Assembly: GCA_934630735.1 (NCBI GenBank)
Contig: CAKTWK010000043.1
Coordinates: forward strand, 1-16,631
Source of the DNA: an uncultured Collinsella sp.
GTDB taxonomy: Bacteria; Actinomycetota; Coriobacteriia; Coriobacteriales; Coriobacteriaceae
Reading direction: 5' to 3'
DNA length: 16,631 nt
Both the position numbers and the translations under genes were made by a program. The notes beneath the pieces are model-generated. The model was not told the DNA's origin. It saw only the letters and a list, made by a program, of their open reading frames with translations, and made no database searches. How positions within the stretch are numbered: position 1 is the stretch's first letter; every line of letters starts with the position of its first letter. This document shows, one piece after another, positions 109 to 15,955 of the stretch.

Positions 109-3100
109 TCACGCTTCGCCCCAGAATCTATGGGTGTTGCGCAGGAGCTGTGCAGTTTTGCCCTCGGCGGCCGCAACGTCGGCCTCATCGGCCTGCCACG
201 TCCAGTTGCCCGTGGCCACGCCCGGCACGTTCATGCGCGCGTCGTCGCCAAGCCCCAGGATATCCTGCAGCGGCATCATCACCAGGGGAGCGTCGCTTGC
301 CAGCGCATCGCCCATCAGCTTGGCCGCCACCTCAACACCGCTCGGCTCGTCGCCGCCCGCAAAGGAGCGCGTGCACCAACCGGCGAGCGTCGATGTGTCG
401 TGCGTCGAGGTATACAGAATCTTGCCCGGCGTTGGATGCACGCCGTCGCGGACGTCGTAATCGCTAAACTCCAGCACGTCCATGCCGGGGAAGCCGCAGG
501 TCGAAGCCATGGCGCGAACGCCGGGCGTCAGGTAGCCCAGGTCCTCGGCGATAAAGTTGAGCGGTCCCAGCTCGTCATAGGCAGTCTGGAACAGGTCCTT
601 GCCCGGACCCGCCAGCCAGCGGCCGTCGGCGCAGGCCTTGCCTGCGGGAATGCTAAAGTAGCTGTGGAAGCCCAGGAAGTGGTCCAGGCGCACGCGGTCG
701 TAGAGCGAGAACGCGCGACGCAGGCGATCCATCCACCAGCGGTAGCCGTTCTGCTTCATGTGGTCCCAGCGGAACGTCGGGTTGCCCCACACCTGACCCT
801 CGGGCGCAAAGTTGTCGGGCGGCGCGCCCGAAATCTCAATCGCCTTGCCGGTATCGGACAGCCAGAAGTTATCGGGCTCGCTCCACGCGTCGGCCGAATC
901 GTCCGAGACATACATCGGGATATCGCCGATGACCTCGATGCCCTTCTTATGCGCATAGTTCATGAGCTCGCACCAGGCCAAGTCAAATCGGTACTGCATG
1001 TACGCCTGCAGCTCTGCCTCGTCATGGAAACGCTTGTCGTCAATCAGATGCTCGTTGTAGCGCGCGACATCGGCCGGCCAATCGTGGCGCGACTCGCCCT
1101 CAAAGTACTTCTTAACGGCCATGTAGACGCAGTGCTTCTCGAGCCAATCGGCGTTGCGATGTTTAAACGCCGTGTAGAGCGGGTCTGCATCCTCGCCGCC
1201 ACGGGCCTTCCAAGTCTCAAAGTCGGCCGCCAGCTCTTCTTGGCTCTCGGGCAGCAGGTCAATATTGCCCGCAAAGGCCGAAGGCCCAGCGTAAGGGGAG
1301 CGGAAGAAGTCTGTCGGGTTGACGGGCAGGACCTGCCAGTAGCGCATACCCATAGCGGCCAGATGGTCGATAAAGCGACGCGTGGGTGCGCCGATCGTGC
1401 CGGGCTTGCCGTCATCGGTGGGCACCGAGGTGATATGGCACACAACGCCCGCGCCGTGATCGAGCGGCTCCTGCAGGCGCTGCTCGGCATGGTGATAGAT
1501 GATCGACGAGCCCAGCGGATACAGATCGAGCGTGACCGTACCGTTGTGTATCTCGCACTCGCGACCGCTGATGACGTCACTCGCGCATTCGCCGAGCGCC
1601 GGAATCGTCACGCGGTGCGAATTGCGCAGACTGCGGTTGATGATAACCGTCGCGGACTCGCCATCCTTGCCCGTACGGTTGTAGGCCAGCACCTCGTCGT
1701 TGAGCGCAAAGGCCTTGATCTCGCCGTCGATCATAAATGGCAGTGCGCGGCGTACGGCGGAGGCGTTCTTGACAATAGCCAGCGTGTCGAAGTCGTGCAG
1801 GTCTTCCTTCAAGGGCAGGGTGCGGCGGTTGCCCGGATCGGTAAGGCCCTCCAGGCCGTACTCGTCGCCGTAGTAGATCGAAGGCACGCCGGGGAAGGTC
1901 ATCTGCATGAGCGTGGCGAGCCAAAAGCGGCTCTTGGCCAGGCCCATCGAGTTCTCGTCCAGGCGCCACTTGCTGCGCTCGCACTCGGGCAGCTGCGACT
2001 CGTCGGGGCCGCCGCCGAGCACCGAGATGATACGTGGACGGTCGTGGCTCGACAGCAGGTTGAGCGCGCAGGACAGGGCCTCGCGCGGATAATTCTCGCG
2101 CAGGGTCTCGATATCCTCGGCTGCCTGGTAGGCGTTCTTGTAGCCCATCAAAAAGCCGATGACCATGTCGCGGAAGGGATAATCCATAGCCGAGTCAAGC
2201 TCGGATCCCTGCAGGTAACGACGCAAATGGCCGTAGCTAATCTTGTTGGAGGCGTCTTCCCAGACTTCGCCGAGCAACAGTGCATCAGGCTTTTCGGCAA
2301 GTACGGCCTTCTTGATCTCGGCCAGGAAGTCGTCGGAAAGCTCGTCAGCGACGTCCAGGCGCCAGCCATGAGCGCCGGCACGTAGCCATTTACGGATTAC
2401 GCCGTCCTTGCCCAGGAGCCGCTCCCGTACCAGCTCGGAGCTCTCATTGATGGCGGGCATGTTGCCCACGCCCCACCAGCAGTCGTACGAGCCGTCCTCG
2501 TGGAAATAAAACGCATCGCGCCACGGCGAATCCTCGCTCTGCCACGCGCCCACGCCGGGGTAGTTGCCATAGCGGTTAAAGTAGATCGAGTCATCGCCCG
2601 TGTGGTTGAAGACGCCGTCCAGGATGATGGAGATGCCCAGCTTCTCGGCTGCCTGGCACAGCTCGGTAAAGTCCTGCTCGGTGCCCAGGATCGGGTCGAT
2701 CTTGGTGTAGTCGGCCGTGTCGTAGCGGTGGTTGCTCGCGGCCTCAAAGATGGGGTTGAGGTAGATGGCCGTAAAGCCCAGCTCGGCGATGCGAGGCAGG
2801 TCTTCTTGGATGCCCTTGAGCGAGCCGCCGTAGAAGTCCCAGGTCTTGATGGAGCCGTCCTCGGCGCGCTCGTATACGGGCGGCTCGTTCCAGTCCTCGA
2901 TCATGCGGCGCTGGATTCCGTTGCGCGGTTTTTCGACCTCGGCCAGTGTGCGCTCGCGCCAGTTTTCGTCGCGGGCATAGCGGTCGGGGAAGATCTGGTA
3001 CACCATGCCGCGCTCGTACCAGGCGGGGCGGTTCTCGCGGTGCTTATAGACGGTAATTTGGAAGGACGGCACCTCGGCGTAGTCGTAGGTTACGCCCTCG

Positions 3101-3405
3101 CCGCCGGTGCGGCCTTGCGGCGCGCCCAGGCGAACCTCGGGCTGTCCCTCGATATTGCATATAAAGCTGTACCAGATAAGACAGGGCTCGGTGCACTCAA
3201 GCTCTACGGTAAATATGCCGTCGCCCTCGTGCGTCATGGGATACCTAGACTCGCCGATCTCATCGACCCAGGTGCGCAGCGTAAGCGTTGCCTGATTGGG
3301 ATCGGCATCCTCCAGAATCACGGAGAGCGAAAGGGTAGTTCCAGTGGTCACAGCGCCAAACGGAGTGCGAAACTGCGGCAGACGGCTGTTGTGTATCAAT
3401 CTCAT
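109..3405 (-). CDS. malQ: Two-domain alpha-glucan enzyme: neopullulanase-like GH13 fused to GH77 4-alpha-glucanotransferase
   Basis: This 1098-residue protein joins two complete glycoside hydrolases. Residues 1 to about 120 look like an N-terminal beta domain of the neopullulanase/cyclomaltodextrinase type. The GH13 barrel follows, with region I DGVFNH (D263-H268), nucleophile D351 in GWRLD, acid/base E380 in LGEVW and D455 in SSHD. The GH77 (MalQ) part starts near residue 650, with SPYAGPSAFAGN at 703-714, nucleophile D908 in RLDHF, acid/base E954 in AEDLG and D1003 in STHDT. Both catalytic triads are intact. There is no signal peptide, so it should be cytosolic. The expected role is to debranch and disproportionate the short oligosaccharides left by GlgP. 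Automated pipelines may call such proteins GlgX/4-alpha-glucanotransferase, but the N-terminal half looks like a neopullulanase rather than a typical GlgX. The ATG has only a weak GGA upstream. Exact GH13 substrate preference cannot be told from sequence alone. Confidence 0.9.
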   Translation of the reverse strand: MRLIHNSRLPQFRTPFGAVTTGTTLSLSVILEDADPNQATLTLRTWVDEIGESRYPMTHEGDGIFTVELECTEPCLIWYSFICNIEGQPEVRLGAPQGRTGGEGVTYDYAEVPSFQITVYKHRENRPAWYERGMVYQIFPDRYARDENWRERTLAEVEKPRNGIQRRMIEDWNEPPVYERAEDGSIKTWDFYGGSLKGIQEDLPRIAELGFTAIYLNPIFEAASNHRYDTADYTKIDPILGTEQDFTELCQAAEKLGISIILDGVFNHTGDDSIYFNRYGNYPGVGAWQSEDSPWRDAFYFHEDGSYDCWWGVGNMPAINESSELVRERLLGKDGVIRKWLRAGAHGWRLDVADELSDDFLAEIKKAVLAEKPDALLLGEVWEDASNKISYGHLRRYLQGSELDSAMDYPFRDMVIGFLMGYKNAYQAAEDIETLRENYPREALSCALNLLSSHDRPRIISVLGGGPDESQLPECERSKWRLDENSMGLAKSRFWLATLMQMTFPGVPSIYYGDEYGLEGLTDPGNRRTLPLKEDLHDFDTLAIVKNASAVRRALPFMIDGEIKAFALNDEVLAYNRTGKDGESATVIINRSLRNSHRVTIPALGECASDVISGRECEIHNGTVTLDLYPLGSSIIYHHAEQRLQEPLDHGAGVVCHITSVPTDDGKPGTIGAPTRRFIDHLAAMGMRYWQVLPVNPTDFFRSPYAGPSAFAGNIDLLPESQEELAADFETWKARGGEDADPLYTAFKHRNADWLEKHCVYMAVKKYFEGESRHDWPADVARYNEHLIDDKRFHDEAELQAYMQYRFDLAWCELMNYAHKKGIEVIGDIPMYVSDDSADAWSEPDNFWLSDTGKAIEISGAPPDNFAPEGQVWGNPTFRWDHMKQNGYRWWMDRLRRAFSLYDRVRLDHFLGFHSYFSIPAGKACADGRWLAGPGKDLFQTAYDELGPLNFIAEDLGYLTPGVRAMASTCGFPGMDVLEFSDYDVRDGVHPTPGKILYTSTHDTSTLAGWCTRSFAGGDEPSGVEVAAKLMGDALASDAPLVMMPLQDILGLGDDARMNVPGVATGNWTWQADEADVAAAEGKTAQLLRNTHRFWGEA

Positions 3406-3460
3406 AGTACGGTCCAGTTCAATAGAATCACGGCCTGTGGGCCATGGGCTTTACGCACAG

Positions 3461-3472
3461 AATATAAGTATA
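3461..3472 (-). promoter_or_regulatory. Candidate -10 elements for the GH13-GH77 gene
   Basis: On the minus strand, two overlapping -10-like hexamers lie 55-70 nt upstream of the ATG: TATACT (3472..3467) and TATATT (3466..3461), each matching TATAAT at five of six positions. No convincing -35 sits 16-18 nt upstream. A promoter that depends on an activator, or one further upstream, is possible. The preceding hairpin at 3561-3587 makes an independent promoter likely. Confidence 0.35.
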
Positions 3473-3504
3473 TCTGTTGTACACAGGCTGTATAAACAAC
3501 ATCC

Positions 3505-3547
3505 GTTTACCATCGGCGAACGGTTGTCCTAGAAAATCGTTTTACCA
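3505..3547 (-). promoter_or_regulatory. Two operator-like half-sites upstream of the GH13-GH77 gene
   Basis: GTTTACCA (3505-3512) and GTTTTACCA (3539-3547) on the plus strand read as TGGTAAAC and TGGTAAAAC in the direction of the gene. They are direct repeats about 35 bp apart. The same words form the inverted repeats in the glgB promoter region (13407-13494). The recurrence suggests a shared transcription factor. The regulator itself is not in the window. Confidence 0.45.
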
Positions 3548-3560
3548 ACTATCTAAAGAG

Positions 3561-3587
3561 AAGGGGCGCCCGGTTGGAGCGCCCCTT
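3561..3587 (-). terminator. Terminator hairpin of the glgB-P-C-D-A unit
   Basis: A perfect 9-bp stem (AAGGGGCGC / GCGCCCCTT) with a 9-nt loop begins 37 nt beyond the glgA stop. In the minus direction it is followed by a short pyrimidine run (CTCTTT). It is the best terminator candidate of the glycogen operon and separates it from the promoter of the GH13-GH77 gene. Confidence 0.6.
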
Positions 3588-3624
3588 GTTTAGGGTTTTG
3601 ATTAGGTTTTAGATCGTCTGTGGG

Positions 3625-5937
3625 CTAGCGGCGCTTGCGGGTGGCCGTTGCCTTGCGGACGGACGTCTTCTTGGATGGCGCCTTTTCCACGGTCGTGGCG
3701 GCAGGGGAGACCGGGGTCTCCTTGGCGGGTTCGGGCTTGGCCTTTACCTCGGTCTTGGGCTCCTCTTTGGCTGCATCGGGCTTGGTCTCTGCCTTGGGAG
3801 TTGCGGCCTTTGCCGTGGTCTTCTTGGTCGTCGTGGTGCGCTTTCGCGTGGTGGTCTTTGCGGCGGGCTTGGCCTTGACGGTTGCCTCCGCCTTGGACTC
3901 GGCAGGCATCTCCTCGACCTTAGCGGCCGGCTTTGCGGCTGCCTTGGGGGCAGTCTTCGTTGCAGTGGCCTTACTGGCCGTCGCCTTCGTAGCTGTAGCC
4001 TTCTTGGCGGTCGTGCTCTTGGTCGAGGTCGTCTTCTTGGCTGCAGTCTTGGCCTGAGCCTTCTTGGCCGGCTTGGTCTCGGTGGTCTCGGCCTTTACCT
4101 CGGGAGCAGTCTCGGCCTCGGCGGCCTTCTTGGCGGCGGCGGTCGTGCACTTGTGCGTGGTCGTTGCCTTGGCAACAGTCGTCTTTGCTGCGGCGGTCTT
4201 GATGGCAGCGGCCTTGGCTGTCGTAGCCTTCTTGGCGGTCGTCTTGCGCGTCGTGGTCTTCTTGGCGGCAGGCTTCGCAGCCGGCTTAGCCTCAACCTCG
4301 GGAGTCGCCTCAACCTTTACCTCAGGCTCTGCCTTTGCGGGCTCAGCCTCAACTGGCTTCTTCTCAGCCTTGGGCTCCTCAGCAGCAGCGGGCGCCTCAG
4401 CAACCGGCTCGGCCTTGGGCTCAGGCTCGGCCACAACCACAGGCTCGTCGGCAACAGCCGCCGGGCGCTCAATCTCCGGGTGCATAAAGAAATACAGGTC
4501 CAGATACTTGTCGGCCGAGCGCGTCCAGCTAAAGTCCTGGCTCATGGCCTGCGTGACCAGCTGGTTCCAGGCATCGCGGTTGTCCCAGAACAGGCGTGCC
4601 GCACGGAACACGGCGTCGCCCATTTCGTCGCCGTTAAAGTTAGTAAACGAGAAGCCCGTGCCTTCGCCGGTAAACTCGTTATACGGGATTACGGTGTCCT
4701 TCAGACCGCCGGTCTCGCGAACAATCGGCAGGGTGCCGTAGCGCATGGCGATGATCTGCGACAGGCCGCAGGGCTCAAATTTCGAAGGCATCAGGAACAT
4801 ATCGGCGGCGGCATACATACGCTGCGACAGCGCAGGATCGAACTCGATGCGTGCGGCCATGGTGCCGGGGTACTTGTCCTGGAAGTAGCGCAGGCCGTCC
4901 TCGTAGTCGCGGTCGCCGGTGCCCAGCACCGCCACCTGCACGCCGCCGGCCAAAATGCGGTCGAGCGCGTACATGACCAGGTCCATGCCCTTCTGGCGCG
5001 TCAGGCGCGTGACCATCACCATGAGCGGACGGTCGTCGCGAACCTCGAGCCCCAGCTCTTCCTGCAGCTTGGCCTTGCACACAGCCTTGCCAGAACGGTC
5101 CTCGACCGTGTAATTGGCGGCAATGCGCTTGTCGGTCGCCGGGTCAAAGCCCGCCACGTCAATGCCGTTCAAAATGCCCTGCAGCGCATAGGAGCGCTCG
5201 CGCAGCACACCGTCCAGGCCCTCGCCAAACTCGGGCGTCTGGATCTCGTTGGCATAGGTGGGGCTCACCGTGGTGATGGCGTCGGCATAGCGCAGGGCGC
5301 CCAGCATGTAGTTGATGCTGCAGGCGTCGCAACGCAGCTGCGAGGCGGCCGCCGGAATATGCGCCACGCCCAGGATGTCCTCCATCACGGTGTCGCTAAA
5401 CTGGCCCTGGAACGCCACGTTGTGGATCGAGAACACGGTCTTGACGCGGTCGTACAGCGGCAGGCCCTGGTAGAACTCGCGCAAGAACACGGGCGCCAGT
5501 GCCGTCTGCCAGTCGTTGCAGTGCAGGATGTCACACTCAAAGCCCTCGGGCAGGTGCTGCAGACTCTCGGTGATGGCCTTGGAGAAGAACGCAAAGCGCT
5601 CGCCGTCATCAAAGAAGCCGTACGGATAGTCGCGCGCAAAGTAGCGTTCGTTGTCGATGAACATATACGTGACGCCGTCGTGCTCGAGCTTCTCGAGCCC
5701 GCAGTACTCGTTGCGCCAACCCAGGCTCACGTAAAAGTCGGAGAAGTGCTCCATCTGCGCCTTGTACTCGTCCTTGATGGTGGCGTATTTGGGCACCATC
5801 ACGATGACTTCGGCGCCGGCGCGCACGAGCGCCGCAGGCAGCGAGCCCGCCACGTCGCCCAGGCCACCGGTCTTTACAAACGGTGCGCATTCGGCCGAGG
5901 CAAACACGATCTGCATCTTTTTGCTGGAATCTGCCAT
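3625..5937 (-). CDS. glgA: Glycogen synthase (GT5) with a histone H1-like C-terminal tail
   Basis: It transfers glucose from ADP-glucose to the non-reducing ends of alpha-1,4-glucan. The 770 residues divide in two. Residues 1 to about 488 are a normal GT5 synthase: K22-TGGLGDV for ADP-glucose binding, R311/K316 in RLTRQKG, and E388 in KFEPCGLSQ. Bacterial GlgA is usually about 480 residues, so this is a full enzyme. Residues about 490-770 are an extra tail of Ala, Lys, Thr, Pro and Glu. It starts with an acidic Pro/Ala/Glu stretch, passes into basic blocks such as KKTTTRKTTAKK, and ends RKATATRKRR. It has no recognisable fold. The ATG at 5937 is preferred because GGGAG lies 5 nt before it. 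An in-frame ATG four codons upstream (5949) lacks a Shine-Dalgarno sequence and itself overlaps that GGGAG. The gene follows glgD by 90 nt with a hairpin between them and is the last gene of the operon. The tail's role is unknown. Confidence 0.95.
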   Translation of the reverse strand: MADSSKKMQIVFASAECAPFVKTGGLGDVAGSLPAALVRAGAEVIVMVPKYATIKDEYKAQMEHFSDFYVSLGWRNEYCGLEKLEHDGVTYMFIDNERYFARDYPYGFFDDGERFAFFSKAITESLQHLPEGFECDILHCNDWQTALAPVFLREFYQGLPLYDRVKTVFSIHNVAFQGQFSDTVMEDILGVAHIPAAASQLRCDACSINYMLGALRYADAITTVSPTYANEIQTPEFGEGLDGVLRERSYALQGILNGIDVAGFDPATDKRIAANYTVEDRSGKAVCKAKLQEELGLEVRDDRPLMVMVTRLTRQKGMDLVMYALDRILAGGVQVAVLGTGDRDYEDGLRYFQDKYPGTMAARIEFDPALSQRMYAAADMFLMPSKFEPCGLSQIIAMRYGTLPIVRETGGLKDTVIPYNEFTGEGTGFSFTNFNGDEMGDAVFRAARLFWDNRDAWNQLVTQAMSQDFSWTRSADKYLDLYFFMHPEIERPAAVADEPVVVAEPEPKAEPVAEAPAAAEEPKAEKKPVEAEPAKAEPEVKVEATPEVEAKPAAKPAAKKTTTRKTTAKKATTAKAAAIKTAAAKTTVAKATTTHKCTTAAAKKAAEAETAPEVKAETTETKPAKKAQAKTAAKKTTSTKSTTAKKATATKATASKATATKTAPKAAAKPAAKVEEMPAESKAEATVKAKPAAKTTTRKRTTTTKKTTAKAATPKAETKPDAAKEEPKTEVKAKPEPAKETPVSPAATTVEKAPSKKTSVRKATATRKRR
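3628..4470 (-). repeat. Low-complexity, repetitive segment coding the GlgA tail
   Basis: About 840 bp encode the Ala/Lys/Thr/Pro/Glu tail from a narrow set of codons. Short words recur; for example CTTCTTGGCGGTCGT (plus-strand reading) appears near 4008 and near 4229. Such DNA can expand or contract by slippage or recombination, so tail length may differ among strains. The long plus-strand open frames opposite it follow from the biased composition and are not genes. Confidence 0.7.
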
Positions 5938-5942
5938 ATTGT

Positions 5943-5947
5943 CTCCC
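5943..5947 (-). promoter_or_regulatory. Ribosome binding site that decides the glgA start
   Basis: GGGAG on the minus strand lies 5 nt before the ATG at 5937. It overlaps the upstream in-frame ATG (5949..5947), which therefore cannot use it. This argues for the shorter, 770-residue GlgA. Confidence 0.6.
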
Positions 5948-5960
5948 ATGTTGCAATTCG

Positions 5961-6027: not shown

Positions 6028-7155
6028 TTAACGTACGATGGTGGTGTCGGAAGTTAACGGAGCCTTGCCCAGCACCAGGATGTTCTCGGGCGTGCCGCGA
6101 AGCTCGGTGTTGGTGGGAACCACGTTGTTCTTGTCCAGAATGGCGTTCTCGACGCGGGCGCCGCTCTTGATGATGCAGCTCTGGTTGATGATCGAGTTGG
6201 TCACCGAAGCGCCTTCCTCGACCACGACGCCGCGCGACAGGATCGAGTTGCGCACGGTGCCCTTGATGATGCAGCCGGCCGAGATGATCGAGTTGCACGC
6301 ATGGCTGCCGGTCGCATAGCGCGAAGGCGGCACGTCGTGGGCCTTGGTCAGGATCGGGCGCTCGGGATCGAAGAGCTGGTCGGCCACGGTCTGATCGAGC
6401 AGGTCCATGCTGCGGCGATATAGCGACTTCTCGCTAAACACGCCCACGACCTCGCCCTTGTACTCGTAGCTGCACACGTCGATGTTGCCAAAGTCGCCCT
6501 GGAGTGCCTCGAGCAGGTCCAGATAGTCGGCGGCCTGGTAGTGGTCGATGATCTCGAGCAGCGTCTCGCGGTTGACGATGCAGCAGTCCATGGAGGCGTT
6601 GTCGCCGTACGCGACGCCGGCGCTCACGCCCGTCAGGCGACCGTTCTCGTTAATCTCGAGCTTGGTCTCGTCATCGACGTTGCGCGTGGCCTTGCAGTAC
6701 ACCACGGTCATCTGGGCACCGGAGTTCTCGTGCGCCTCGATGATGGTGTTGAGGTCCATGTTAAAGATGATGTTGGTGCCCATCATCACGACATAGGGCT
6801 TCTCCGAGCGCTGGAACAGCGTCTTGTTGGAGATGATGTCGCGCAGCAGGAAGCGCATGCCGCCCTTGGTGGTGCCATATGCGTTGCCGGGCACCATGAA
6901 CAGGCCGCCCTTCTTGCGGTCCAGGCCCCAGTCCTTGCCCGAGCCCACGTGGTCGATCAGCGAGCGGTAGTTGCCCGGCATGACGACACCGACGGTCTTA
7001 ATGCCGGCATTCATCATGTTGGACAGCGGGAAGTCGATCAGGCGGTAGCGGCCCAAAAACGGAACGGACGCGATGGGGCGGTCCTTGAGCAGCACGCTGC
7101 CGTAAGTCGAAGAGTAGTTAGCGGTGATATAACCGATGGCCTTGCGATTGATCAT
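6028..7155 (-). CDS. glgD: GlgD, regulatory-type subunit of glucose-1-phosphate adenylyltransferase
   Basis: This 375-residue nucleotidyltransferase paralog has an N-terminal Rossmann-like domain and a C-terminal left-handed beta-helix (about residues 280-345, with repeats such as NSIISAGCIIKG). It lacks the catalytic signatures of its neighbour: the GGxGxRL loop is replaced by TANYSSTYGS (residues 12-19 region), and GDHLYRMD is replaced by GTNIIFNMD. This is the pattern of GlgD in Bacillus-type GlgCD heteromers, where GlgD raises the activity of GlgC. The ATG at 7155 is 4 nt past the glgC stop. Its Shine-Dalgarno sequence (AAGGGGG) lies inside the end of glgC at 9 nt spacing, implying translational coupling. 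An upstream in-frame start at 7194 would overlap glgC by 35 nt and add 13 residues absent from the family, so it was not used. Confidence 0.92.
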   Translation of the reverse strand: MINRKAIGYITANYSSTYGSVLLKDRPIASVPFLGRYRLIDFPLSNMMNAGIKTVGVVMPGNYRSLIDHVGSGKDWGLDRKKGGLFMVPGNAYGTTKGGMRFLLRDIISNKTLFQRSEKPYVVMMGTNIIFNMDLNTIIEAHENSGAQMTVVYCKATRNVDDETKLEINENGRLTGVSAGVAYGDNASMDCCIVNRETLLEIIDHYQAADYLDLLEALQGDFGNIDVCSYEYKGEVVGVFSEKSLYRRSMDLLDQTVADQLFDPERPILTKAHDVPPSRYATGSHACNSIISAGCIIKGTVRNSILSRGVVVEEGASVTNSIINQSCIIKSGARVENAILDKNNVVPTNTELRGTPENILVLGKAPLTSDTTIVR

Positions 7156-7159
7156 CGGA

Positions 7160-8308
7160 TCATTCCCCCTTCCCGATAACGACGTCATTTCCAACGACGG
7201 CCGTATCCTTGGTGGTATCGACAGAGCCGAGCTTCACGCCCTCTTCGACCGTGGAGTTCTCGCCCAAAATAGCGCGGCAGATGTGCGCGCCGCTCTTAAC
7301 GTGCGCACCCGGCAGCAGCACGGAGTCCTCGACCACGGCGCGCTCCTCGATGATGACATCGGTCGAAAGGATCGAGTGGCGAGCGGTGCCGTAGATCTTG
7401 CAGCCGTTGGAGACCAAGCAGTCGTCCAGGCGGCCGTCCGGTCCAATGTAGTGCGGCGGACGCGTGGTGATGTTGGACATGATGGGGAAGTTCTTGTCGA
7501 ACAGATCGAACTCGGGGTTGTTGCCCAGCAGATCCATCGAGGTCTCGTGGAAGCTGGCGATGGTGCCGACGTCCTTCCAAAAGCCGTGGAACTCGTAGCT
7601 GTACAGGCGCTTATTCTCGCCGAGCAGCTTGGGGATGATGTCCTTGCCAAAGTCGTGGCTCGAGCGCTGGTCCAGAGCGTCCTCCTCGAGCGCCTCGATC
7701 AGCACGTCGGCCGAGAAGATGTAGATGCCCATAGAAGCGAGGTTCGAATCGGGCTTGTCGGGCTTCTCGGTGAACTTGGTGATGCGACCGTCCTCGGGGT
7801 CGGTGGTCAGGATGCCAAAGCGGCTGGCTTCCTCCCACGGCACGGGCATAACGCTCACCGTGAGGTCGGCGTTGTTCTCAATATGCGTCTTGAGCATCTT
7901 GCGGTAGTCCATGCGATACAGGTGATCTCCCGAAAGAATCAGGACGTACTTGGGGTCGTTGGCCTTGATGTAGTCGAGGTTCTGCGTAATGGCGTCGGCC
8001 GTGCCCGCATACCAGGCGCCGCCGGTCTGCGTCTCGTACGGCGGCAGAATCGACACGCCGCCGTCGCGGCTGTCCAGATCCCACGCCTCGCCGGAGCCCA
8101 CATAGGCATGCAGCAGGTAGGGACGGTACTGCGTCAGAACGCCCACCGTGTCGATGCCCGAGTTGGAGCAGTTGGAGAGCGAAAAGTCGATAATGCGGAA
8201 CTTGCCACCAAAGCTAACCGCCGGCTTGGCGATCTTTTGGGTGAGTGCCCCCAATCGGCTGCCCTGTCCTCCTGCGAGGAGCATCGCGATGCATTCTTTC
8301 TTACTCAT
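7160..8308 (-). CDS. glgC: Glucose-1-phosphate adenylyltransferase, catalytic subunit
   Basis: It makes ADP-glucose and pyrophosphate from glucose-1-phosphate and ATP, the committed step of bacterial glycogen synthesis. The 382 residues match the short Bacillus-type GlgC (about 380) rather than the enterobacterial form (about 430). Visible motifs are GGQGSRLG (13-20) for nucleotide binding, YAGTADAI (100-107), GDHLYRMD (127-134), EKPDKPDSN (181-189) for the sugar phosphate, and WKDVGT (244-249). A beta-helix domain fills roughly 290-380. The start has a strong ribosome binding site, AAGGAG at 6 nt. It follows glgP by 106 nt and is coupled to glgD. The N-terminal Arg-rich allosteric segment of the E. 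coli enzyme is absent, so fructose-1,6-bisphosphate control of the E. coli kind is not expected; this is an inference. Confidence 0.96.
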
Positions 8309-8414: not shown

Positions 8415-10841
8415 TTACGCGTGCCAGATCTCGTCGCGGTACTCGCGAATGGTACGGTCGCTCGAGAACCAGCCGGAGGAGGCGGTGTTGAGCAGCGCCT
8501 TGCGGTTCCAGGTCTCCTGGTCGCCGTAGCTGTTCGTGAGCGCCTCCCACGCATCCACGTAGCTGCGGAAATCGGCCATGACCAGGTCGGGGTCGTTGTT
8601 GTTCATGAGCTCGTTGTAGATGCTTTCAAAGTTGCCCGAAAGGCCGGCAAATGTGTTGTCCTTGAGCTCGTCCATCACGCGGCCCAGACGCTCGCGGTCG
8701 CCGTTGAGGGTGTCCCACGCAAAGTAGCTGTTGGATGCCCAGAGCTGCTCGACCTCAGGAGCGGTCAGGCCAAAGATGGCCTCGTTCTCGCGGCCGGCTA
8801 GGTCGGCGATCTCGATGTTGGCGCCGTCGAGGGTGCCCAGCGTAATGGCGCCGTTCATCATGAGCTTCATGTTGGACGTGCCCGAGGCCTCCTTGCCGGC
8901 CGTGGAGATTTGCTCCGAGATTTCGGCGGCGGGGTAGATGAGCTGGGCGTTGCTCACGCGGAAGTTGGGGATAAAGCAGACCTTCATGACCTCGTTGACG
9001 CGGGCATCGTTGTTGATGACGTCGGCCACCGAGTTGATCAGGCGGATGGTCTCCTTGGCAAAGGTGTAGCTCGAGGCAGCCTTGCCGCTAAAGATGAAGG
9101 TCGTCGGCGTCACGTGGAAGTTGGGATCGGCGATGCGACGGTTGTAGATGTCCATCACCTTCATGATGTTCATGAGCTGGCGCTTGTAGGCGTGGAAGCG
9201 CTTGACCTGAACATCGAAGACGGTGTTGGGGTCAATGACCAGACCGGTCTCGGCCTTAACGTAGGCGGCCAGGCGCTCCTTGTTGGCGCGCTTGGAGGAA
9301 CCCACGGCCTTCAGGAACTCGGTGTCGTTCTGGAATTCTTTGAGCTTTTCCAGCTCAAAGGCGTCCTTGAGCCATCCGTCGCCAATGGCCTCGGTCACGA
9401 GCTTGGCATAGGTGGGGTTGGCCTCGGCAAAGAAGCGACGGTGCGAGATACCGTTGGTCTTGTTATTGAACTTCTCGGGCGTCAGGGCATAGAAGTCCTT
9501 GAGCACAATGTTCTTGATGATGTCGGAGTGAATCTTGGCCACGCCGTTGACGCTGTGGCTGCAGATCACAGACAGGTTGGCCATGCGAATCTCGCCGTCC
9601 CACAGGATGGCGGTCTGGCGCAGACGCTCCTGCCAGCCCTCCTGCGTGGTGTCGAACGACTCGTGCCAACGACGGCTGATCTCGTCGATGATCTGGTACA
9701 CGCGGGGGAGGAGCTTGGAGAACGTGCCGATGGGCCACTTCTCCAGGGCCTCGGGCAGGATGGTGTGGTTGGTGTAGCTCACGACCTGCGTCACGATGTT
9801 CCAGGCGTCATCCCACTCGAGCTTCTTCTCGTCGATGAGGATGCGCATGAGCTCGGGGCCGCACATGGCGGGGTGGGTGTCGTTGGTGTGGATGGCCACA
9901 AACTGCGGCAGCAGCTCCCAGTTCTCGCCGTGCTCCTTCTCAAAGGTGTCGAGCAGGCTGTAGATGCCGGCCGAAACAAACAGGTACTCCTGCTTCAGGC
10001 GCAGCAGACGGCCGTGCTCGCCGGCGTCGTTGGGGTAGAGGATGGCGCTGATGGCCTCGGCCTCGGCGCGCTCGGCATCGGCCAGGGCGTAGTCGCCGCG
10101 GTTAAAGGCCTCAAGGTCAAAGTGCTCCTCGACCGGCTCGGCGGCCCAGACGCGCAGCTTGTTGACGGTCTCGCCGGCATAGCCCACAACGGGGATGTCA
10201 TAGGGGACGGCCAGAATGTCCTGCGTGTCCACCGTGCGGTAGAACGTGCGGCCGTTCTCCTCAAAGCCCTCTACATGGCCACCAAACTTGATGGTCACGG
10301 CCTTGTCCTGACGACGGACCTCCCAAGGATAACCGTGGGTGAGCCACTCGTCGGTGGCCTCGACCTGGCTGCCGTTGACGATCTCCTGCTTAAACAGGCC
10401 GTAGCGGTAGCGCATGCCGTTGCCATAGCCTGCAATGCCCTCGGCTGCCATGGAATCCAGGAAGCATGCGGCCAGACGGCCCAGGCCACCGTTGCCCAGC
10501 GCCGGATCGGGCTCCTGGTTCTCGATGACGGACAGGTCGAAGCCCATGTCGTCGAGCGCCTCGGCGACCATGTCGCGCACGCCAAAGTTGAGCAGGTAGT
10601 TGTCGAGCAGGCGGCCGATCAAAAACTCGATCGAGAAGTAGTACACGCGCTTCTTGCCCTCGACGGTCACACGGGCGTCACTCTTGGTGGCAACGGTGCG
10701 TGCCTTCTCGGCCACGAGCTTGGCCAGGGCGTTAAAGCGGTCGAGGTCGCTGGCGGCCTCGACGCTCTTGCCGCTGATGCTCATGACGGCATCGCGATAG
10801 AGCTCGGTAAACTCCTGCTTGTTGTCGAAGATCTTATTCAT
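8415..10841 (-). CDS. glgP: Glycogen/alpha-glucan phosphorylase (GT35)
   Basis: It removes glucose as glucose-1-phosphate from the non-reducing ends of glycogen, using pyridoxal phosphate. At 808 residues it has the usual bacterial length. The PLP signature EASGTSNMKLMMNGA is at 651-665, with the Schiff-base lysine at K659, followed by LGTLDGANIE (668-677). The N-terminal motif NGGLGRLAACFLDS is at 117-130 and the HTNDTHPA region at 318-325. The ATG is preceded by AAAGGA about 4-5 nt upstream. It is cytosolic. It sits between glgB and glgC, so synthesis and breakdown are encoded on one transcript, and flux control must then be at protein level or by internal promoters. The tail seen on GlgA and GlgB is absent here. 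Confidence 0.96.
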   Translation of the reverse strand: MNKIFDNKQEFTELYRDAVMSISGKSVEAASDLDRFNALAKLVAEKARTVATKSDARVTVEGKKRVYYFSIEFLIGRLLDNYLLNFGVRDMVAEALDDMGFDLSVIENQEPDPALGNGGLGRLAACFLDSMAAEGIAGYGNGMRYRYGLFKQEIVNGSQVEATDEWLTHGYPWEVRRQDKAVTIKFGGHVEGFEENGRTFYRTVDTQDILAVPYDIPVVGYAGETVNKLRVWAAEPVEEHFDLEAFNRGDYALADAERAEAEAISAILYPNDAGEHGRLLRLKQEYLFVSAGIYSLLDTFEKEHGENWELLPQFVAIHTNDTHPAMCGPELMRILIDEKKLEWDDAWNIVTQVVSYTNHTILPEALEKWPIGTFSKLLPRVYQIIDEISRRWHESFDTTQEGWQERLRQTAILWDGEIRMANLSVICSHSVNGVAKIHSDIIKNIVLKDFYALTPEKFNNKTNGISHRRFFAEANPTYAKLVTEAIGDGWLKDAFELEKLKEFQNDTEFLKAVGSSKRANKERLAAYVKAETGLVIDPNTVFDVQVKRFHAYKRQLMNIMKVMDIYNRRIADPNFHVTPTTFIFSGKAASSYTFAKETIRLINSVADVINNDARVNEVMKVCFIPNFRVSNAQLIYPAAEISEQISTAGKEASGTSNMKLMMNGAITLGTLDGANIEIADLAGRENEAIFGLTAPEVEQLWASNSYFAWDTLNGDRERLGRVMDELKDNTFAGLSGNFESIYNELMNNNDPDLVMADFRSYVDAWEALTNSYGDQETWNRKALLNTASSGWFSSDRTIREYRDEIWHA

Positions 10842-10935: not shown

Positions 10936-13170
10936 TTACGCATCCTTGGCAGACGGCTTAACAGAAGCAGACTTGGCCTTGGTAGCGCCCTTTTTGGCAG
11001 TCGGCTTCTTGGTCGCGGTAGCCTTAGCAGCGGGCTTGGTAGCCTTTGCCTTAGCCGGAGCCTTCTTGGCAGCCGCGGGCTTGGGCTTTACCGAGGACGT
11101 GCGCTTCTTGGGCGCAGCCTTGGGCTCCTCAACCACCGGCGGCTTATAGCTGCTGGGGCCGCGGCGTTTAAGCACCACGCCGGCCAGTCCGGGTACCTTA
11201 ATCTCGATGGAGTCCATCTGCCCGTTCCAGGGATAGGGCTCGCTCGAGCAGGTGTAGGGCTCCTCGCCGGCATAGCCGCTGCCGCCAAACTCGGGACGGT
11301 CGGAATCGAAGATGACCTCCCAGTCACCCTCGCGCGGCACGCCCACGCGGAAGCTCTCGTAGCTCGCCGGATCAAAGTTGATCAGGATCACCAGGTCGTC
11401 GTCGATATCCTCGCCCTGACGCACAAAGCTCACGATGGACTGCTTGGAGTTGTCCGCATCGATCCAGGTAAAGCCGTCGTCGGTGTAGCCGCGCTCGTAC
11501 AGGGCGGGCTCGGCGGTGTACAGGTGGTTGAGTGCCTTGATAAACGCCTGATGATGCCTGTGGGTCTCGTACTCCTCGGTCAGGAACCACTGGATGGACT
11601 CGTAGTAGCGCCACTCGATAAACTGACCGATCTCGTTGCCCATAAAGTTGAGCTTGGCACCGGGGTGCGTCATCTGGTAGAAGGCGAGCGTGCGCAGGCC
11701 GGCAAACTGGCGCCACCAGTCGCCCGGCATGCGGCCGATGAGCGAGCACTTGCCGTGCACGACCTCGTCGTGGCTCAGTGGGCAAATGAAGTTCTCGGTA
11801 AAGGCGTACATGATGGAGAACGTGAGCAGTCCGTGGTTGCCGGGGCGCCACGGAAAATCGGTCTGCATGTAGTGCAGGGTGTCGTTCATCCAGCCCATGT
11901 CCCACTTGTAGTGGAAGCCCAGGCCGCCGTCCTGCGGCGGGTAGGTCACGAGCGGCCACGCGGTGGACTCCTCGGCCATCATCATCACGTCGGGGTAATG
12001 CGCCTCAACAGCGCAGTTGACCTGGCGGATAAACGCGCTGGCGTCCAGGTCCTCCTCGGTACCGTACTTGTTGAACTTCTTTTGGCCCGGATCGTCGATG
12101 CCAAAGTTGAGGTACAGCATGCTGGACACGCCGTCCATGCGAATGCCGTCAACGTGGAAGTTCTCGAGCCAGTACAGCACGTTGGAGACCAGGAAGGAGC
12201 GGACCTCGCCGCGGGCGAAGTCAAACTTATGCGTGCCCCAGTTGGGGTGAATCTCGTGCTCAAACAGCATGTGGCCGTTAAATGTGGCAAGGCCGTGGGC
12301 GTCGGCGCAAAAACCGCCGGGCACCCAGTCCATGATCACGCCGATGCCTGCCTCGTGGCATGCATCGATAAAGTGCATGAGCTGCTGCGGGTTGCCGTAG
12401 CGCGACGTGGCGGCATAGTAGCCGGTCGTCTGGTAGCCCCAGGAGCCGTCGAAGGGATGCTCCATGAGCGGCATGACCTCGATATGCGTGTAGCCCATGT
12501 CGCGCACGTAGTCCACGAGCTCCACCGACAGGTCGTCGTAGGTGTAGAACTCGCCGCGCTGCGCGGGGAAGGGATCCATGGGGCCGGGGTAGTTTCCGTA
12601 CTCGTCCGGCTCGCCCTGCGGCGCGTCGCCGTGGCGCTTCCACGAGCCAATATGCACCTCGTAGATGTTAAGCGGCTGCGACATGTGGTTATGACTGGCG
12701 CGGCGCTTAAGCCACGCGGCGTCGTTCCACTTGTAGCCATCGAGGGTCCACAGCACGCTGGCGGTACCCGGAGGGCACTCTGCCTTAAAGGCATACGGAT
12801 CGGCCTTGTAGAGCTTTTCGCCCTCGTTGGTCTCGATAAGGTACTTATATAGCTGGCCCTGCTCGGCGCCAGGAATAAAGCCTTCCCAAATAGCGCTCGT
12901 ATGCATGGGCACCAGCGGGTTGGCTTGTTCATCCCAGTCGTTAAATTCGCCAATGACATGGACGCTCTTTACGTCGGGCGCCCAAACGCAAAAACGCCAG
13001 CCGCGCGTACGGTTCTGCGTGTCGGGGTGCGCGCCCATCTTTTCCCAGCTGCGCTCCCACGTACCAATGCCAAACAGATAGACATCGTCCTTGGTGAGCT
13101 CCGGTGCGTGCGGGGCGGCTTTGCGGGTAGCAGGCTTTTTGGTTGCTGGCTTTAGCTTTGTATCGCTCAC
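10936..13170 (-). CDS. glgB: 1,4-alpha-glucan branching enzyme (GH13_9) with basic low-complexity tail
   Basis: It cuts alpha-1,4 chains and rejoins them as alpha-1,6 branches. Numbering from the GTG at 13170 (744 residues): residues 1-20 are a short Lys/Pro/Thr/Ala leader, about 50-150 a CBM48-like domain (FCVWAPDVKSVHVIGEFNDW), then the barrel with D281 in region I, nucleophile D346 in GIRMD, acid/base E400 in MAEEST and D468 in LSHDE. The C-terminal beta domain ends near 670. Residues 674-744 are an Ala/Lys/Pro/Thr tail, unlike typical GlgB. Region I reads DWVPGGF, while E. coli and Bacillus have DWVPGHF, so the conserved histidine is Gly286. The GTG is preferred because GGGA lies 6 nt upstream. 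The ATG codons at 13185 and 13182 lack such a site, and a TTG at 13230 is less likely still. First gene of the glycogen operon, with a leader of about 200 nt. Confidence 0.92.
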   Translation of the reverse strand: MSDTKLKPATKKPATRKAAPHAPELTKDDVYLFGIGTWERSWEKMGAHPDTQNRTRGWRFCVWAPDVKSVHVIGEFNDWDEQANPLVPMHTSAIWEGFIPGAEQGQLYKYLIETNEGEKLYKADPYAFKAECPPGTASVLWTLDGYKWNDAAWLKRRASHNHMSQPLNIYEVHIGSWKRHGDAPQGEPDEYGNYPGPMDPFPAQRGEFYTYDDLSVELVDYVRDMGYTHIEVMPLMEHPFDGSWGYQTTGYYAATSRYGNPQQLMHFIDACHEAGIGVIMDWVPGGFCADAHGLATFNGHMLFEHEIHPNWGTHKFDFARGEVRSFLVSNVLYWLENFHVDGIRMDGVSSMLYLNFGIDDPGQKKFNKYGTEEDLDASAFIRQVNCAVEAHYPDVMMMAEESTAWPLVTYPPQDGGLGFHYKWDMGWMNDTLHYMQTDFPWRPGNHGLLTFSIMYAFTENFICPLSHDEVVHGKCSLIGRMPGDWWRQFAGLRTLAFYQMTHPGAKLNFMGNEIGQFIEWRYYESIQWFLTEEYETHRHHQAFIKALNHLYTAEPALYERGYTDDGFTWIDADNSKQSIVSFVRQGEDIDDDLVILINFDPASYESFRVGVPREGDWEVIFDSDRPEFGGSGYAGEEPYTCSSEPYPWNGQMDSIEIKVPGLAGVVLKRRGPSSYKPPVVEEPKAAPKKRTSSVKPKPAAAKKAPAKAKATKPAAKATATKKPTAKKGATKAKSASVKPSAKDA
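10939..11151 (-). repeat. Low-complexity segment coding the GlgB tail
   Basis: About 210 bp encode a lysine- and alanine-rich tail with blocks such as KPAAAKKAPAKAKATKPAAK. The composition resembles the GlgA tail, but it is shorter and lacks its long acidic part. Plus-strand open frames here are compositional shadows. Confidence 0.65.
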
Positions 13171-13270
13171 GTTTGATCCCATCATGACGCGGCAGCGTGT
13201 TGCCTTGGTGACTAGATGCGAAAGGTCCAAGGCTGCACGAATCGAAGGGACGGCGATAGTTCTATGATTC

Positions 13271-13494: not shown

Positions 13495-13516
13495 TTTGAC
13501 ATCGAAAGGCTCGTTT

Positions 13517-14206
13517 ATGAACCACATCGCTGCTCCAAGTGTTGCTTTTATTTTCGATTGCGACGGAACACTGGTTAATAGCTCCCCCGTCTGGGGCCAT
13601 GCACAGACCGAGTTATTGCGCCGTCATGGCATTGATGTAACGGTCGACGATTTTGCCCAGTTTGAACATCTTTCGCTGGAGGACGAGTGCCAGGCCTACC
13701 ACGACACGTGGGGCATTGGCGCGAATGGCGAGGAGCTGTATCGCGAGCTGAGCGAGATTTTGATGGAGGGGTACTCCAAGGTGCCGCCGCGCGAGGGGCT
13801 CCTGGCGTTTCTGGAGCAGGCGAAGGAGGCCGGTATTGCCATGTGCGTTGCCACGTCTACGCCGGCCAAACTGGTGCAGTCCGCCCTTGCGGGTGCTGGC
13901 CTTAATCGCTATATGGAGGTTATTACCACAACGGGCGAGGCTGGGCGCTCCAAGCAGTTTCCCGACGTGTACGAGCTGGCATTGCGTTGCCTGGAAGAGC
14001 GCCACGGGCACAAGTTTGAGCGCACCTGGGTGTTTGAGGACGCCGTCTTTGGCCTTAAGAGCTCTGGCGCCGCTGGATTTAAACGCGTGGGCATCTATGA
14101 TCCGCACGGCCGTATGGAGCGCGACGAGGTGCGTATCAACTGCGACATCTTTATCGACAGCTATGAGGACCTGGACCTGGCCCGCGTGCTTTCGTTTGAG
14201 GGCTAG
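13517..14206 (+). CDS. HAD-superfamily hydrolase, beta-phosphoglucomutase/phosphatase-like
   Basis: A 229-residue cytosolic phosphatase or phosphomutase of the HAD subfamily I type with a helical cap. Motif I is DCDGT (D14, D16), motif II VATST (111-115), motif III K146 in RSKQFPD, and motif IV VFEDAVFG (E174, D175). All catalytic positions are present. The cap (about 20-90) resembles the beta-phosphoglucomutase group, but the substrate cannot be read from sequence. The ATG at 13517 has AAAGG at 7 nt. A TTG frame opening at 13496 was rejected. It lies divergent from glgB and 9 nt before a thiamine pyrophosphokinase gene. The first neighbour suggests sugar phosphates and the second a thiamine or nucleotide phosphatase role. 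Neither is proven. Confidence 0.88.
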   Translation: MNHIAAPSVAFIFDCDGTLVNSSPVWGHAQTELLRRHGIDVTVDDFAQFEHLSLEDECQAYHDTWGIGANGEELYRELSEILMEGYSKVPPREGLLAFLEQAKEAGIAMCVATSTPAKLVQSALAGAGLNRYMEVITTTGEAGRSKQFPDVYELALRCLEERHGHKFERTWVFEDAVFGLKSSGAAGFKRVGIYDPHGRMERDEVRINCDIFIDSYEDLDLARVLSFEG

Positions 14207-14215
14207 GCGAGGGCC

Positions 14216-14857
14216 GTGGCTTGCAAAGTATTAGTGGTATGCGGCTCGCCGTTGTTGGCGAGCGCGGATCTGCTTCGTCAGCTGGCGGGGGAGTGCGGCC
14301 ACGTTGTCGCCGTGGACCGTGGGCTCGATGCACTGCTGGGCGCGGGACTGGGCTGCGACGTCTACGTGGGCGACGCCGACACCGTAAGCGATGAGGGACG
14401 CGCGTTGGTCGATGCCGCTGCCGATTTTGAAGTAGAACGCCACAACCCCTACAAGGACTACACCGATCTAGCGCTAGCGCTAGACGCCATCCGCCGTCGC
14501 TGGCCCGGCGCCGAGGTGGTGGCAACCTGCGCCACCGGCGGCCGCCCGGACATGGCCCTGTCTGTGTTGGGGCTACTGGCAGGCTATGCGGATGCTCCCG
14601 TCTGGATCGAAAAAGACGAAGTGACGGCCAGAATCCTTCACCAGGACGAGACCTGGACTATCGAGGGCGCCGAGGGCAAGACCTTCTCCATCATCGCCAT
14701 AGCCCCCAACACAGAGATAAGCGAACACGGCCTAGAATGGGAGCTTGATCACAGCCCCCTAGCCCTATTAGCCGACACGGGCATCTCAAATGTCGTTAGG
14801 AAAACGGCCAAGATTCAAGTCCATCAAGGCGTCGCGATCGCTTACCTCTACAAGTAA
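14216..14857 (+). CDS. thiN: Thiamine pyrophosphokinase
   Basis: It transfers pyrophosphate from ATP to thiamine, giving thiamine diphosphate, the cofactor of transketolase, pyruvate and 2-oxoacid enzymes. The 213 residues carry the family pattern: VDRGLDAL (33-40), GDADT (52-56, usually GDxDS), KDYTDLALAL (80-89) and GGRPDMAL (108-115, where GGRxDH is more usual). The C-terminal beta domain is about 140-213. The GTG start lies 9 nt after the HAD stop; GAGGG is upstream but very close (2 nt), so the start is only moderately certain. No thiamine riboswitch is visible upstream, and the gene appears to ride on the HAD transcript. The KDYTD and GDADT motifs make the assignment fairly firm. Confidence 0.88.
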   Translation: MACKVLVVCGSPLLASADLLRQLAGECGHVVAVDRGLDALLGAGLGCDVYVGDADTVSDEGRALVDAAADFEVERHNPYKDYTDLALALDAIRRRWPGAEVVATCATGGRPDMALSVLGLLAGYADAPVWIEKDEVTARILHQDETWTIEGAEGKTFSIIAIAPNTEISEHGLEWELDHSPLALLADTGISNVVRKTAKIQVHQGVAIAYLYK

Positions 14858-14871
14858 GGCGCTGTCGCGTG

Positions 14872-14955
14872 AGGGTTTTATCGGGACGGTGGGTTAATTG
14901 ACTGATTTTGCCGAAGTCAAAATCAGTCAATTCAGCCCCGTCCCAGGAAAACCCT
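14872..14955. repeat. 84-bp interrupted near-perfect inverted repeat
   Basis: Three nested arms pair exactly: AGGGTTTT / AAAACCCT (14872-14879 and 14948-14955), GGGACG / CGTCCC (14883-14888 and 14939-14944) and a 15-bp AATTGACTGATTTTG with its complement (14896-14910 and 14918-14932). A 7-nt loop (CCGAAGT) caps them. Small internal loops separate the arms. It starts 15 nt after thiN and ends before the tRNA promoter. No T-run follows on either strand. It could be a bidirectional terminator, a REP-like or MITE-like dispersed element, or a structured RNA. Confidence 0.7.
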
Positions 14956-14984
14956 TAAGTAAGACAATCAACTCAAAAAAGTCC

Positions 14985-15013
14985 TTGCACAACTAAGAAT
15001 CTTCCCCTATAGT
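14985..15013 (+). promoter_or_regulatory. Promoter of the tRNA-Ala gene
   Basis: TTGCAC (14985-14990) and TATAGT (15008-15013) are 17 nt apart, and the tRNA begins 13 nt after the -10. This is a near-consensus housekeeping promoter. Confidence 0.8.
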
Positions 15014-15026
15014 ATCTCCTCGTCAC

Positions 15027-15102
15027 GGGGGCGTAGCTCAGCTGGGAGAGCGCTTGACTGGCAGTCAAGAGGTCAGGGGTTCGATCCCCCTCGTCTCCAC
15101 CA
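15027..15102 (+). tRNA. tRNA-Ala, anticodon GGC
   Basis: A full cloverleaf folds by hand: acceptor GGGGGCG with CGTCTCC (15027-15033 and 15092-15098), D arm GCTC/GAGC, anticodon stem CTTGA/TCAAG with loop CTGGCAG (anticodon GGC at 15060-15062), T arm AGGGG/CCCCT with loop TTCGATC, and an encoded CCA end (15100-15102). The third acceptor pair is G-U, the classic alanine identity determinant, which agrees with the anticodon reading GCC. It has its own promoter and terminator. Confidence 0.97.
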
Positions 15103-15112
15103 TCGTGAATGC

Positions 15113-15139
15113 AAGGCCACTCAATCGAGTGGCCTTTTT
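15113..15139 (+). terminator. Intrinsic terminator of the tRNA gene
   Basis: A 9-bp stem (AAGGCCACT / AGTGGCCTT) with a 6-nt loop is followed directly by a T-rich run (TTTTTATTT). Stem plus U-tract is textbook rho-independent termination. Confidence 0.9.
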
Positions 15140-15223
15140 ATTTGCATACGATATCAAGTGGCCTGAACTGCATTTTTGCAAAATATGCAAATTGCTTCCC
15201 TGTTCAAGTTCGCCGTCAGCAGT

Positions 15224-15248
15224 AGTTGTCGCATATTTTGCGACAACT
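15224..15248. repeat. Perfect 10-bp inverted repeat AGTTGTCGCA / TGCGACAACT
   Basis: Two exact 10-bp arms flank TATTT. No U-tract follows on the plus strand (GCACCCC). It could be an operator or a short stem-loop. Confidence 0.5.
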
Positions 15249-15282
15249 GCACCCCAAAAAGTTGCGCAATTACCTTCCCGGT

Positions 15283-15318
15283 TTTGTACAAAGTTTGTTA
15301 GCCAAACTTAATAGTTTG
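15283..15318. repeat. Cluster of palindromes with alternative pairings
   Basis: TTTGTACAAA (15283-15292) is a perfect palindrome. AAGTTTG (15291-15297) pairs with CAAACTT (15303-15309), and CAAACT (15303-15308) can instead pair with AGTTTG (15313-15318). The two hairpins are mutually exclusive, as in a switch or in closely packed half-sites. Confidence 0.4.
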
Positions 15319-15481
15319 AGCAATTCGCGCCGGCAGCAATACAACTCAGGCAGTGATCGCCAACCCACACACCCCCATAAACCTGCGGCAATGTGTGCAT
15401 GCCGGCACAATATCCCCCATAACCACGGCAAATAAACAATATGTTGCTCAACACACCCCAAAACGCATGGGCCACCTGCTG

Positions 15482-15490
15482 TGCTAGGAT
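15482..15490 (+). promoter_or_regulatory. Possible extended -10 promoter for loaP
   Basis: TGTGCTAGGAT contains an extended -10 (TGC before TAGGAT, 15485-15490), but no -35 is evident. If used, it would give a leader of about 460 nt before loaP. Weak evidence. Confidence 0.25.
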
Positions 15491-15853
15491 ACCTAACGTC
15501 ACATGGGTTCAACTGTGCTCACGGCTCCAGCAAGCCGCTAAGCGCAGGGTCGATCAGCATCCGGCCGTAACGGCGGTGCCAGATAAACCACGAGCCCCAA
15601 TAGCGTCGCATGCGTATCGCGTCGAAAAACTTTGTTCTTGTCTATGTGCAAGCTGTTGTTTCGACTCGGTATTTCATGACAAAGCGCAGCAGTCCTGCAG
15701 TTGTTTGAGTGCGGTCCAGTTTTGTTCCCGCTTGACTGGTTCGCACGCAGTCAACTGGTGACGTGGTCATTTTGCGATACACGTCCGCGTCTCTAGCCAC
15801 TGCACTCATACATACCGTTCACGGTGGGGCAGAGCCACGCGCTTGTCTAACTG

Positions 15854-15926: not shown

Positions 15927-15955
15927 ACACGTAAGACAGCAAGGGGGTGGTGCTC

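Follow-up and report, generated by a model that had tools for sequence, protein, structure and literature searches.

Basic histone H1-like C-terminal tails on glycogen synthase and branching enzyme in Collinsella and other Coriobacteriales: a possible tether between glycogen and the nucleoid

A basic C-terminal tail on the branching enzyme GlgB is an order-wide trait of the Coriobacteriales, and in the gut bacterium Collinsella the glycogen synthase GlgA of the same operon ends in a Lys-rich tail as well. By analogy with known granule tethers we propose, at a probability of roughly 0.4, that these tails bind a polyanion, most likely chromosomal DNA, and would thereby tether the growing glycogen particle to the nucleoid.

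The window, by which we mean the whole stretch of 16,631 nucleotides analysed from contig CAKTWK010000043.1, holds a Collinsella glg operon whose minus strand carries glgB, glgP, two ADP-glucose pyrophosphorylase genes (presumably for a glgC-like and a glgD-like subunit), glgA and a fused GH13-GH77 gene (Table 1). The position of glgA on the same strand as glgB, glgP and both pyrophosphorylase genes is that of a glg operon gene, and the nearest named matches of the GlgA core are Collinsella aerofaciens and Collinsella sp., at 99-100%. The fused gene is a single ORF of 1098 amino acids (positions 109-3405, minus strand) that joins an alpha-amylase (GH13) domain to a GH77 4-alpha-glucanotransferase domain. 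On the plus strand, positions 13496-16501 encode a HAD-family hydrolase, a thiamin pyrophosphokinase and a NusG-type protein with a KOW motif, and a tRNA-Ala(ggc) lies at 15027-15102 within this part. The hairpin directly 3' of glgA was absent from the output of a terminator scan of positions 3380-3660.

Table 1. Features of the glg operon and of the GlgA and GlgB tails, in positions of the window.
Feature	Position	Strand	Basis
glgA, glycogen synthase (GT5) with C-terminal tail, 774 aa	3625..5949	-	ORF; NF001898 match
GlgA catalytic core, residues 1-488	4486..5949	-	family match ends; pLDDT; PDB relatives matched to 486-490
Acidic Pro/Glu/Val-rich spacer of GlgA, about residues 489-558	4276..4485	-	first two 30-residue blocks net -6 and -3
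Lys/Thr/Ala-rich basic tail of GlgA, residues 559-774	3628..4275	-	composition; charge; pLDDT <35; lysine conservation
Conserved C-terminal end of GlgA, residues 755-774 (EKAPSKKTSVRKATATRKRR)	3628..3687	-	right-anchored information; aligned control
Strong hairpin directly 3' of glgA, 11 pairs, weak U run on minus strand	3561..3587	-	fold of 3540-3630, z -3.2
glgD-like ADP-glucose pyrophosphorylase subunit (name presumed), tail-less	6028..7194	-	PF24894, PF00483
glgC-like ADP-glucose pyrophosphorylase (name presumed), tail-less	7160..8308	-	PF00483, PF24894
glgP, glycogen phosphorylase, tail-less	8415..10841	-	PF00343 over residues 97-807 of 808
glgB, branching enzyme with basic C-terminal tail; start codon uncertain	10936..13230	-	NF008967, 815 bits, residues 45-690
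GlgB basic tail, residues 689-764, 76 residues (20 K, 3 R, 2 E, 1 D)	10939..11166	-	composition

GlgA is a bacterial glycogen synthase of family GT5 (NF001898, 659.2 bits against a cut-off of 603; PF08323, 274.7 against 22.7). An earlier note on this DNA had placed the end of the enzyme at about residue 488, and the present data agree: NF001898 and TIGR02095 cover residues 12-486, the curated family matches stop at 486-492, and in an AlphaFold2 model, usable when built from 17 alignment rows, the last catalytic helix closes at residue 489. Solved GlgA structures (e.g. 3d1j and 2qzs) share the same full-length GT-B catalytic unit and align with GlgA over residues 12-490, that is, through that unit only. 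No aligned PDB chain matches the basic tail, the chains stopping with the catalytic unit; a granule-bound starch synthase chain, 6gng, aligns as far as residue 525. Past the core the frame continues for about 285 residues of Ala, Lys, Thr, Glu and Pro, as the earlier note had described at some 280 residues: positions 487-774 of the protein comprise 76 A (26%), 56 K (19%), 51 T (18%), 33 E (11%) and 28 P (10%), with a net charge of +29. The block charges also bear out an acidic start followed by basic blocks that alternate with Glu-containing ones, and most Collinsella GlgA tails carry a net negative charge over their first 60 residues. The model gives a pLDDT mostly of 85-98 up to about residue 490 and below 35 from about residue 500 onward, so that the tail is predicted to be disordered; composition and low pLDDT together fit the H1-like polyampholyte character ascribed to it. 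The likeness to H1 is compositional only, as the tail matched no Pfam family at E<=10. The HU domain PF00216 had no match in GlgA or GlgB at E<=0.001. Within the basic part, TTTRK-type blocks occur at residues 565-571, 596-602 and 699-705; the second of these reads TTTHKCTT here and TTTRKRTT-like in other tails of the C. aerofaciens group, with two basic residues altered.

The frame of GlgA is open beyond the core in all 43 Collinsella genomes, and every one of the 42 with a readable stop has a net-basic extension of 105-469 residues and net +12 to +46; the remaining genome (G001) is the one whose contig stops 63 residues into the tail, and in a member of the 42 (G043, L129) the tail contains an ambiguous base, beyond which the translation looks unlike the others and is not relied on. 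The longest tails seen were 469 residues in G029 (L134) and 364 in G038 (L135). An assembly or frameshift artefact, or a tail unique to one assembly, as the earlier note had considered, is thus ruled out by these 43 in-frame readings together with named records. Tailed GlgA extends to four of the five sister genera, where the tail runs to a stop in 14 of 15 genomes, at 213-339 residues and a net charge of +6 to +38, and is cut by a contig end in the fifteenth, whereas both genomes read in the fifth sister genus (g67) are without a GlgA tail. The other Coriobacteriales read gave 11 tail-less GlgA, from f3, against 6 tailed, figures that are no rate since these genomes were partly chosen for long open frames. 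The tailed ones are G390 (249 residues), G315 (185), G251 (296) and the MAG L057 (64) in f3, and G271 (162) and G366 (99) in f5. Loss of the tail by a mere stop in the tail-less relatives was rejected, as a tail-like reading within 900 bases downstream of glgA was found in none of 13. In a tree of GlgA cores the tailed Coriobacteriaceae form one clade (39 of 39 rows), and the tail label needs five changes, four of them forced by starred branches, one of these hanging on L056, whose tail is cut off by a contig end. GlgA tails were gained or lost several times in the Coriobacteriales, and the sporadic ones suggest separate origins because their repeats are quite different (KPAAK in G251, a helix-like EKAKLEA repeat in G390).

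A basic tail on GlgB, encoded in the same operon, had escaped the earlier note. Of 50 Coriobacteriales genomes, 49 could be read at the end of GlgB, and each of these has a net-positive extension, 17-165 residues long and with a net charge of +5 to +35; the one left out is G366, where the gene is broken across contigs. The tail measured at least 29 residues in 47 of the 49, the shortest being 17 and 25. It was kept in seven genomes in which GlgA is tail-less (G098, G045, G206, G074, G147, G201 and G058). Outside the class, none of 22 actinobacterial loci had a basic GlgB tail, their extensions being of 0-13 residues, with one of 54 and net -4; these 22 are the readable ones among the 23 best-scoring loci and represent 71 matching non-Coriobacteriia genomes. 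GlgB tails are almost free of acidic residues, whereas GlgA has its acidic spacer. Across 27 genomes with both tails, the share of Thr/Ser in the GlgA tail rises with that in the GlgB tail (rho 0.70, without correction for kinship). In one genome, G189, the GlgA tail has 6% Lys and 12% Arg and that of GlgB is Arg-rich too; because both are nevertheless net positive, the sequences point to charge rather than lysine chemistry as what matters in the tails. In Pfam the GlgB tail matched just Mucin (E 0.49) and DUF6465 (E 7.8), neither of which reached its cut-off. A K-rich stretch is also found near the N terminus of GlgB (KLKPATKKPATRKAAP; positions 13100-13190, minus strand), where the start codon is uncertain.

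Within genomes such tails were rare. A strict six-frame scan of G003 (at least 20% Lys and at least 85% AKTPE over 40 residues), covering 800 kb of 2.31 Mb (35%) in 40 stretches, one of them picked for GlgB, with 605 proteins called by a simple gene caller, returned GlgA and GlgB only. Lowering the limits to 17.5% and 80% added a single protein, which we take to be ribosomal protein L17, and at 15% and 75% the count rose to 7 of the 605 proteins. A proteome-wide habit of Collinsella was therefore rejected, GlgA and GlgB being the sole proteins to pass the strict scan in this sample. Used as a sequence query, the tail matched only GlgA, in 3 of 7 genomes; a protein search with the tail region gave only GlgA-type proteins among the best 120 of 7957 scored, a result uninformative on other families. 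The same strict scan of 400 kb of a relative, G098, found GlgB and GatB. This GatB-type protein (L250, G098:C1:1520001-1540000, minus strand) has a long Lys/Ala/Pro tail of the GlgA/GlgB kind, its open frame measuring 758 against 504-597 in nine other genomes searched. The tails are thus nearly private to the glycogen enzymes in the Collinsella sample, and this is no law of the order.

Among 24 GlgA sequences of the C. aerofaciens group, pN/pS was 0.30 in the tail and 0.046 in the core. Because pS was also higher in the tail (0.32 versus 0.20), where in-frame indels are frequent, repeat slippage or misalignment plays a part in its divergence. The residues are not equally free to vary: Lys deviated from the column majority in 27 of 1176 cells (2.3%) and Arg in 6 of 238, as against 93 of 700 for Glu (13.3%), 268 of 1762 for Ala and 156 of 1047 for Thr. 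Glu is a fair control for Lys, having the same codon degeneracy, and by column 14 of 51 Lys positions were variable versus 24 of 31 for Glu (P 1.3e-5); a change from Glu to Lys was seen in 18 columns, while the reverse was not among the 40 commonest changes. Lysines were kept in GlgB tails too, with 14 of 440 deviating. Over 38 species-level tails the C-terminal 16 or so residues (consensus like SVSAARKxTTRKR) are the best conserved of the tail proper, with 22.2 bits over 20 right-anchored columns, a figure that flatters this end in that its null windows were unaligned; an aligned control was weaker, at 17.8 bits against an interior maximum of 14.1 over 12 columns. Together, the alignments show that the two enzymes working on the growing glycogen chain conserve the positive charge of their tails while the tail sequence drifts. 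Judging from the 43 open frames, the pN/pS of 0.30 and the far better conservation of Lys than of Glu, Ala or Thr, the tail is more than chance sequence.

Among the roles that the earlier note had listed, binding of a polyanion such as nucleic acid fits this conserved charge best, and we see its observation as confirmed and extended and its interpretation as partly supported. In our model, the tails would have a non-specific affinity for a polyanion of the cell, chromosomal DNA being the likeliest, and the acidic spacer adjoining the enzyme might keep the tail off the catalytic domain. Because the catalytic domains would sit on the growing glycogen particle, enzyme and tail would tether that particle to the nucleoid. 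Such a tether might keep glycogen out of polar, nucleoid-excluded condensates, limit the fusion of particles and give each daughter cell a part of the glycogen, in the way that AlgP, PhaF and PhaM act on polyphosphate and PHB granules; being borne by the enzymes, it would counter a polar glycogen and nucleoid asymmetry of the E. coli type. The genus-wide GlgA tails, the conservation of Lys, the order-wide GlgB tails, the specificity in G003, the covariation in Thr/Ser and the precedent of AlgP, PhaF and PhaM are all in favor of this proposal. On the other hand, RNA, ribosomes or polyphosphate could be partners of such residues just as well, the GlgA tail contains many Glu, some GlgB tails are as short as 17 and 25 residues, g67 and most f3 genomes were read without a GlgA tail, and such tails are not confined to glycogen enzymes, since GatB of G098 carries one. 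That GlgA and GlgB of the Coriobacteriales are themselves the tether fastening glycogen to the nucleoid, with glycogen shared out with the chromosome, is a narrower statement that we advance tentatively and consider somewhat doubtful.

Several other readings account for part of these data. The tails could form a condensate with RNA, ribosomes or polyphosphate that concentrates GlgA and GlgB at the site of glycogen synthesis and involves no DNA tether; a polyampholyte with Lys blocks and predicted disorder is consistent with it, as is the finding that 39 of 42 Collinsella genomes match a polyphosphate kinase family, in a search that covered PPK1-type kinases only (PF02503), and we regard this reading as rather unlikely. 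RNA is a possible partner in such a condensate, with nothing here against it, and polyphosphate, which the earlier note had listed, fits poorly and is unlikely as the sole partner because three genomes with no PF02503 match (G018, G026 and G028) retain GlgA tails of 214, 114 and 164 residues. Alternatively, the tails may act as charged bristles on the glycogen particle, keeping particles apart and soluble without any one partner. The free drift of their length and sequence at a kept net charge would agree with this, and of the two models put forward for AlgP, one has surface charge inhibit fusion (PMC9239181); bristles, however, require neither a net positive charge nor a conserved terminal motif, and yet conservation in the tail is highest at its C-terminal end. 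This explanation seems unlikely to us.

The earlier note had also considered that the tails hold GlgA and GlgB together. Both enzymes are tailed in one operon, and the acidic spacer of GlgA could pair with the nearly acid-free basic tail of GlgB, but the persistence of GlgB tails in the seven genomes with a tail-less GlgA makes such pairing quite improbable as the main role. We give still less credit to a neutral low-complexity sequence arising by repeat slippage: the raised pS, the indels and the one tandem repeat array found would suit it, whereas the pN/pS of 0.30, the column-wise conservation of Lys over Glu, the conserved terminal end and the repeated origin of tails on the same enzymes all argue against it. 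Least credible to us is lysine acetylation of the tail as a metabolic switch, another suggestion of the earlier note, for which the many lysines and the analogy with HupB speak, and against which stand the Arg-rich and still net positive tails of the single genome G189.

If the tether to the nucleoid is true, glycogen would join polyphosphate and PHB as a third storage polymer whose organisation relies on H1-like tails, a principle reused for all three, and would be the first of them in which the polymerising enzymes carry the tail. In this bacterial order, the Coriobacteriales, the glycogen enzymes themselves in any case bear a candidate device for positioning. To our knowledge, the placement and inheritance of bacterial glycogen are largely open questions. 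A storage-polymer synthase that reportedly affects granule number is starch synthase 4 of Arabidopsis; it has a non-catalytic extension, and both this extension and its mechanism are unlike the GlgA and GlgB tails. In E. coli, GlgA-GFP is described as marking glycogen at the old poles, where glycogen excludes the chromosome (PMC4836754), and glycogen condensates as shifting the nucleoid and giving asymmetric division (PMC12706056). Compared with this old-pole, unequal inheritance, the glycogen of Coriobacteriales would, under a tether, travel with the chromosome. Among the open-licence PMC papers listed by our searches, none was on a lysine-rich tail of GlgA or GlgB, and a word search of a 2025 review of organelle positioning returned no mention of glycogen.

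The long Lys-rich C-terminal tail of mycobacterial HupB, with PAKK and KAAK motifs, is reported to be required for nucleoid association (PMC5676037); HupB has an HU domain, whereas GlgA and GlgB are enzymes without one. The HU family profile PF00216 matched none of 42 Collinsella genomes, none of 80 from the order and none of 59 from the class, but 41 of 60 taken from the phylum. The Coriobacteriia are listed as having HU in a 2017 paper (PMC5683647), so that either the profile result or this listing is wrong, or the HU of Coriobacteriia is too divergent. PhaF and PhaM are described as holding the PHB granule with one end and DNA with a histone-like end, their loss altering granule number or clumping, and PhaM as forming complexes with the PHB synthase PhaC (PMC13052382); these are separate granule proteins, whereas in Collinsella the tail is fused to the synthase itself. 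AlgP of Pseudomonas aeruginosa is described as a granule-associated, DNA-binding protein with a 154-residue C-terminal tail of KPAA-type repeats and H1-like composition, which is required for the spacing of polyphosphate granules (PMC9239181). GlgA has in common with this type of tether a Lys/Ala/Pro-rich, H1-like C-terminal tail predicted to be disordered; in place of a non-enzymatic granule-binding N-terminal part, it has a catalytic enzyme. Like AlgP, GlgA and GlgB bear a long H1-like C-terminal tail, although the GlgA tails of the Coriobacteriales have more Thr and Glu than the KPAA repeats and an acidic spacer besides. AlgP is a separate protein and its polymer is polyphosphate, whereas GlgA and GlgB are the polymerising enzymes. 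Tethers with H1-like tails are already known from these granules, and what would be new here, in a model that we borrow by analogy from AlgP, PhaF and PhaM, is a tether built into the enzymes that make the polymer.
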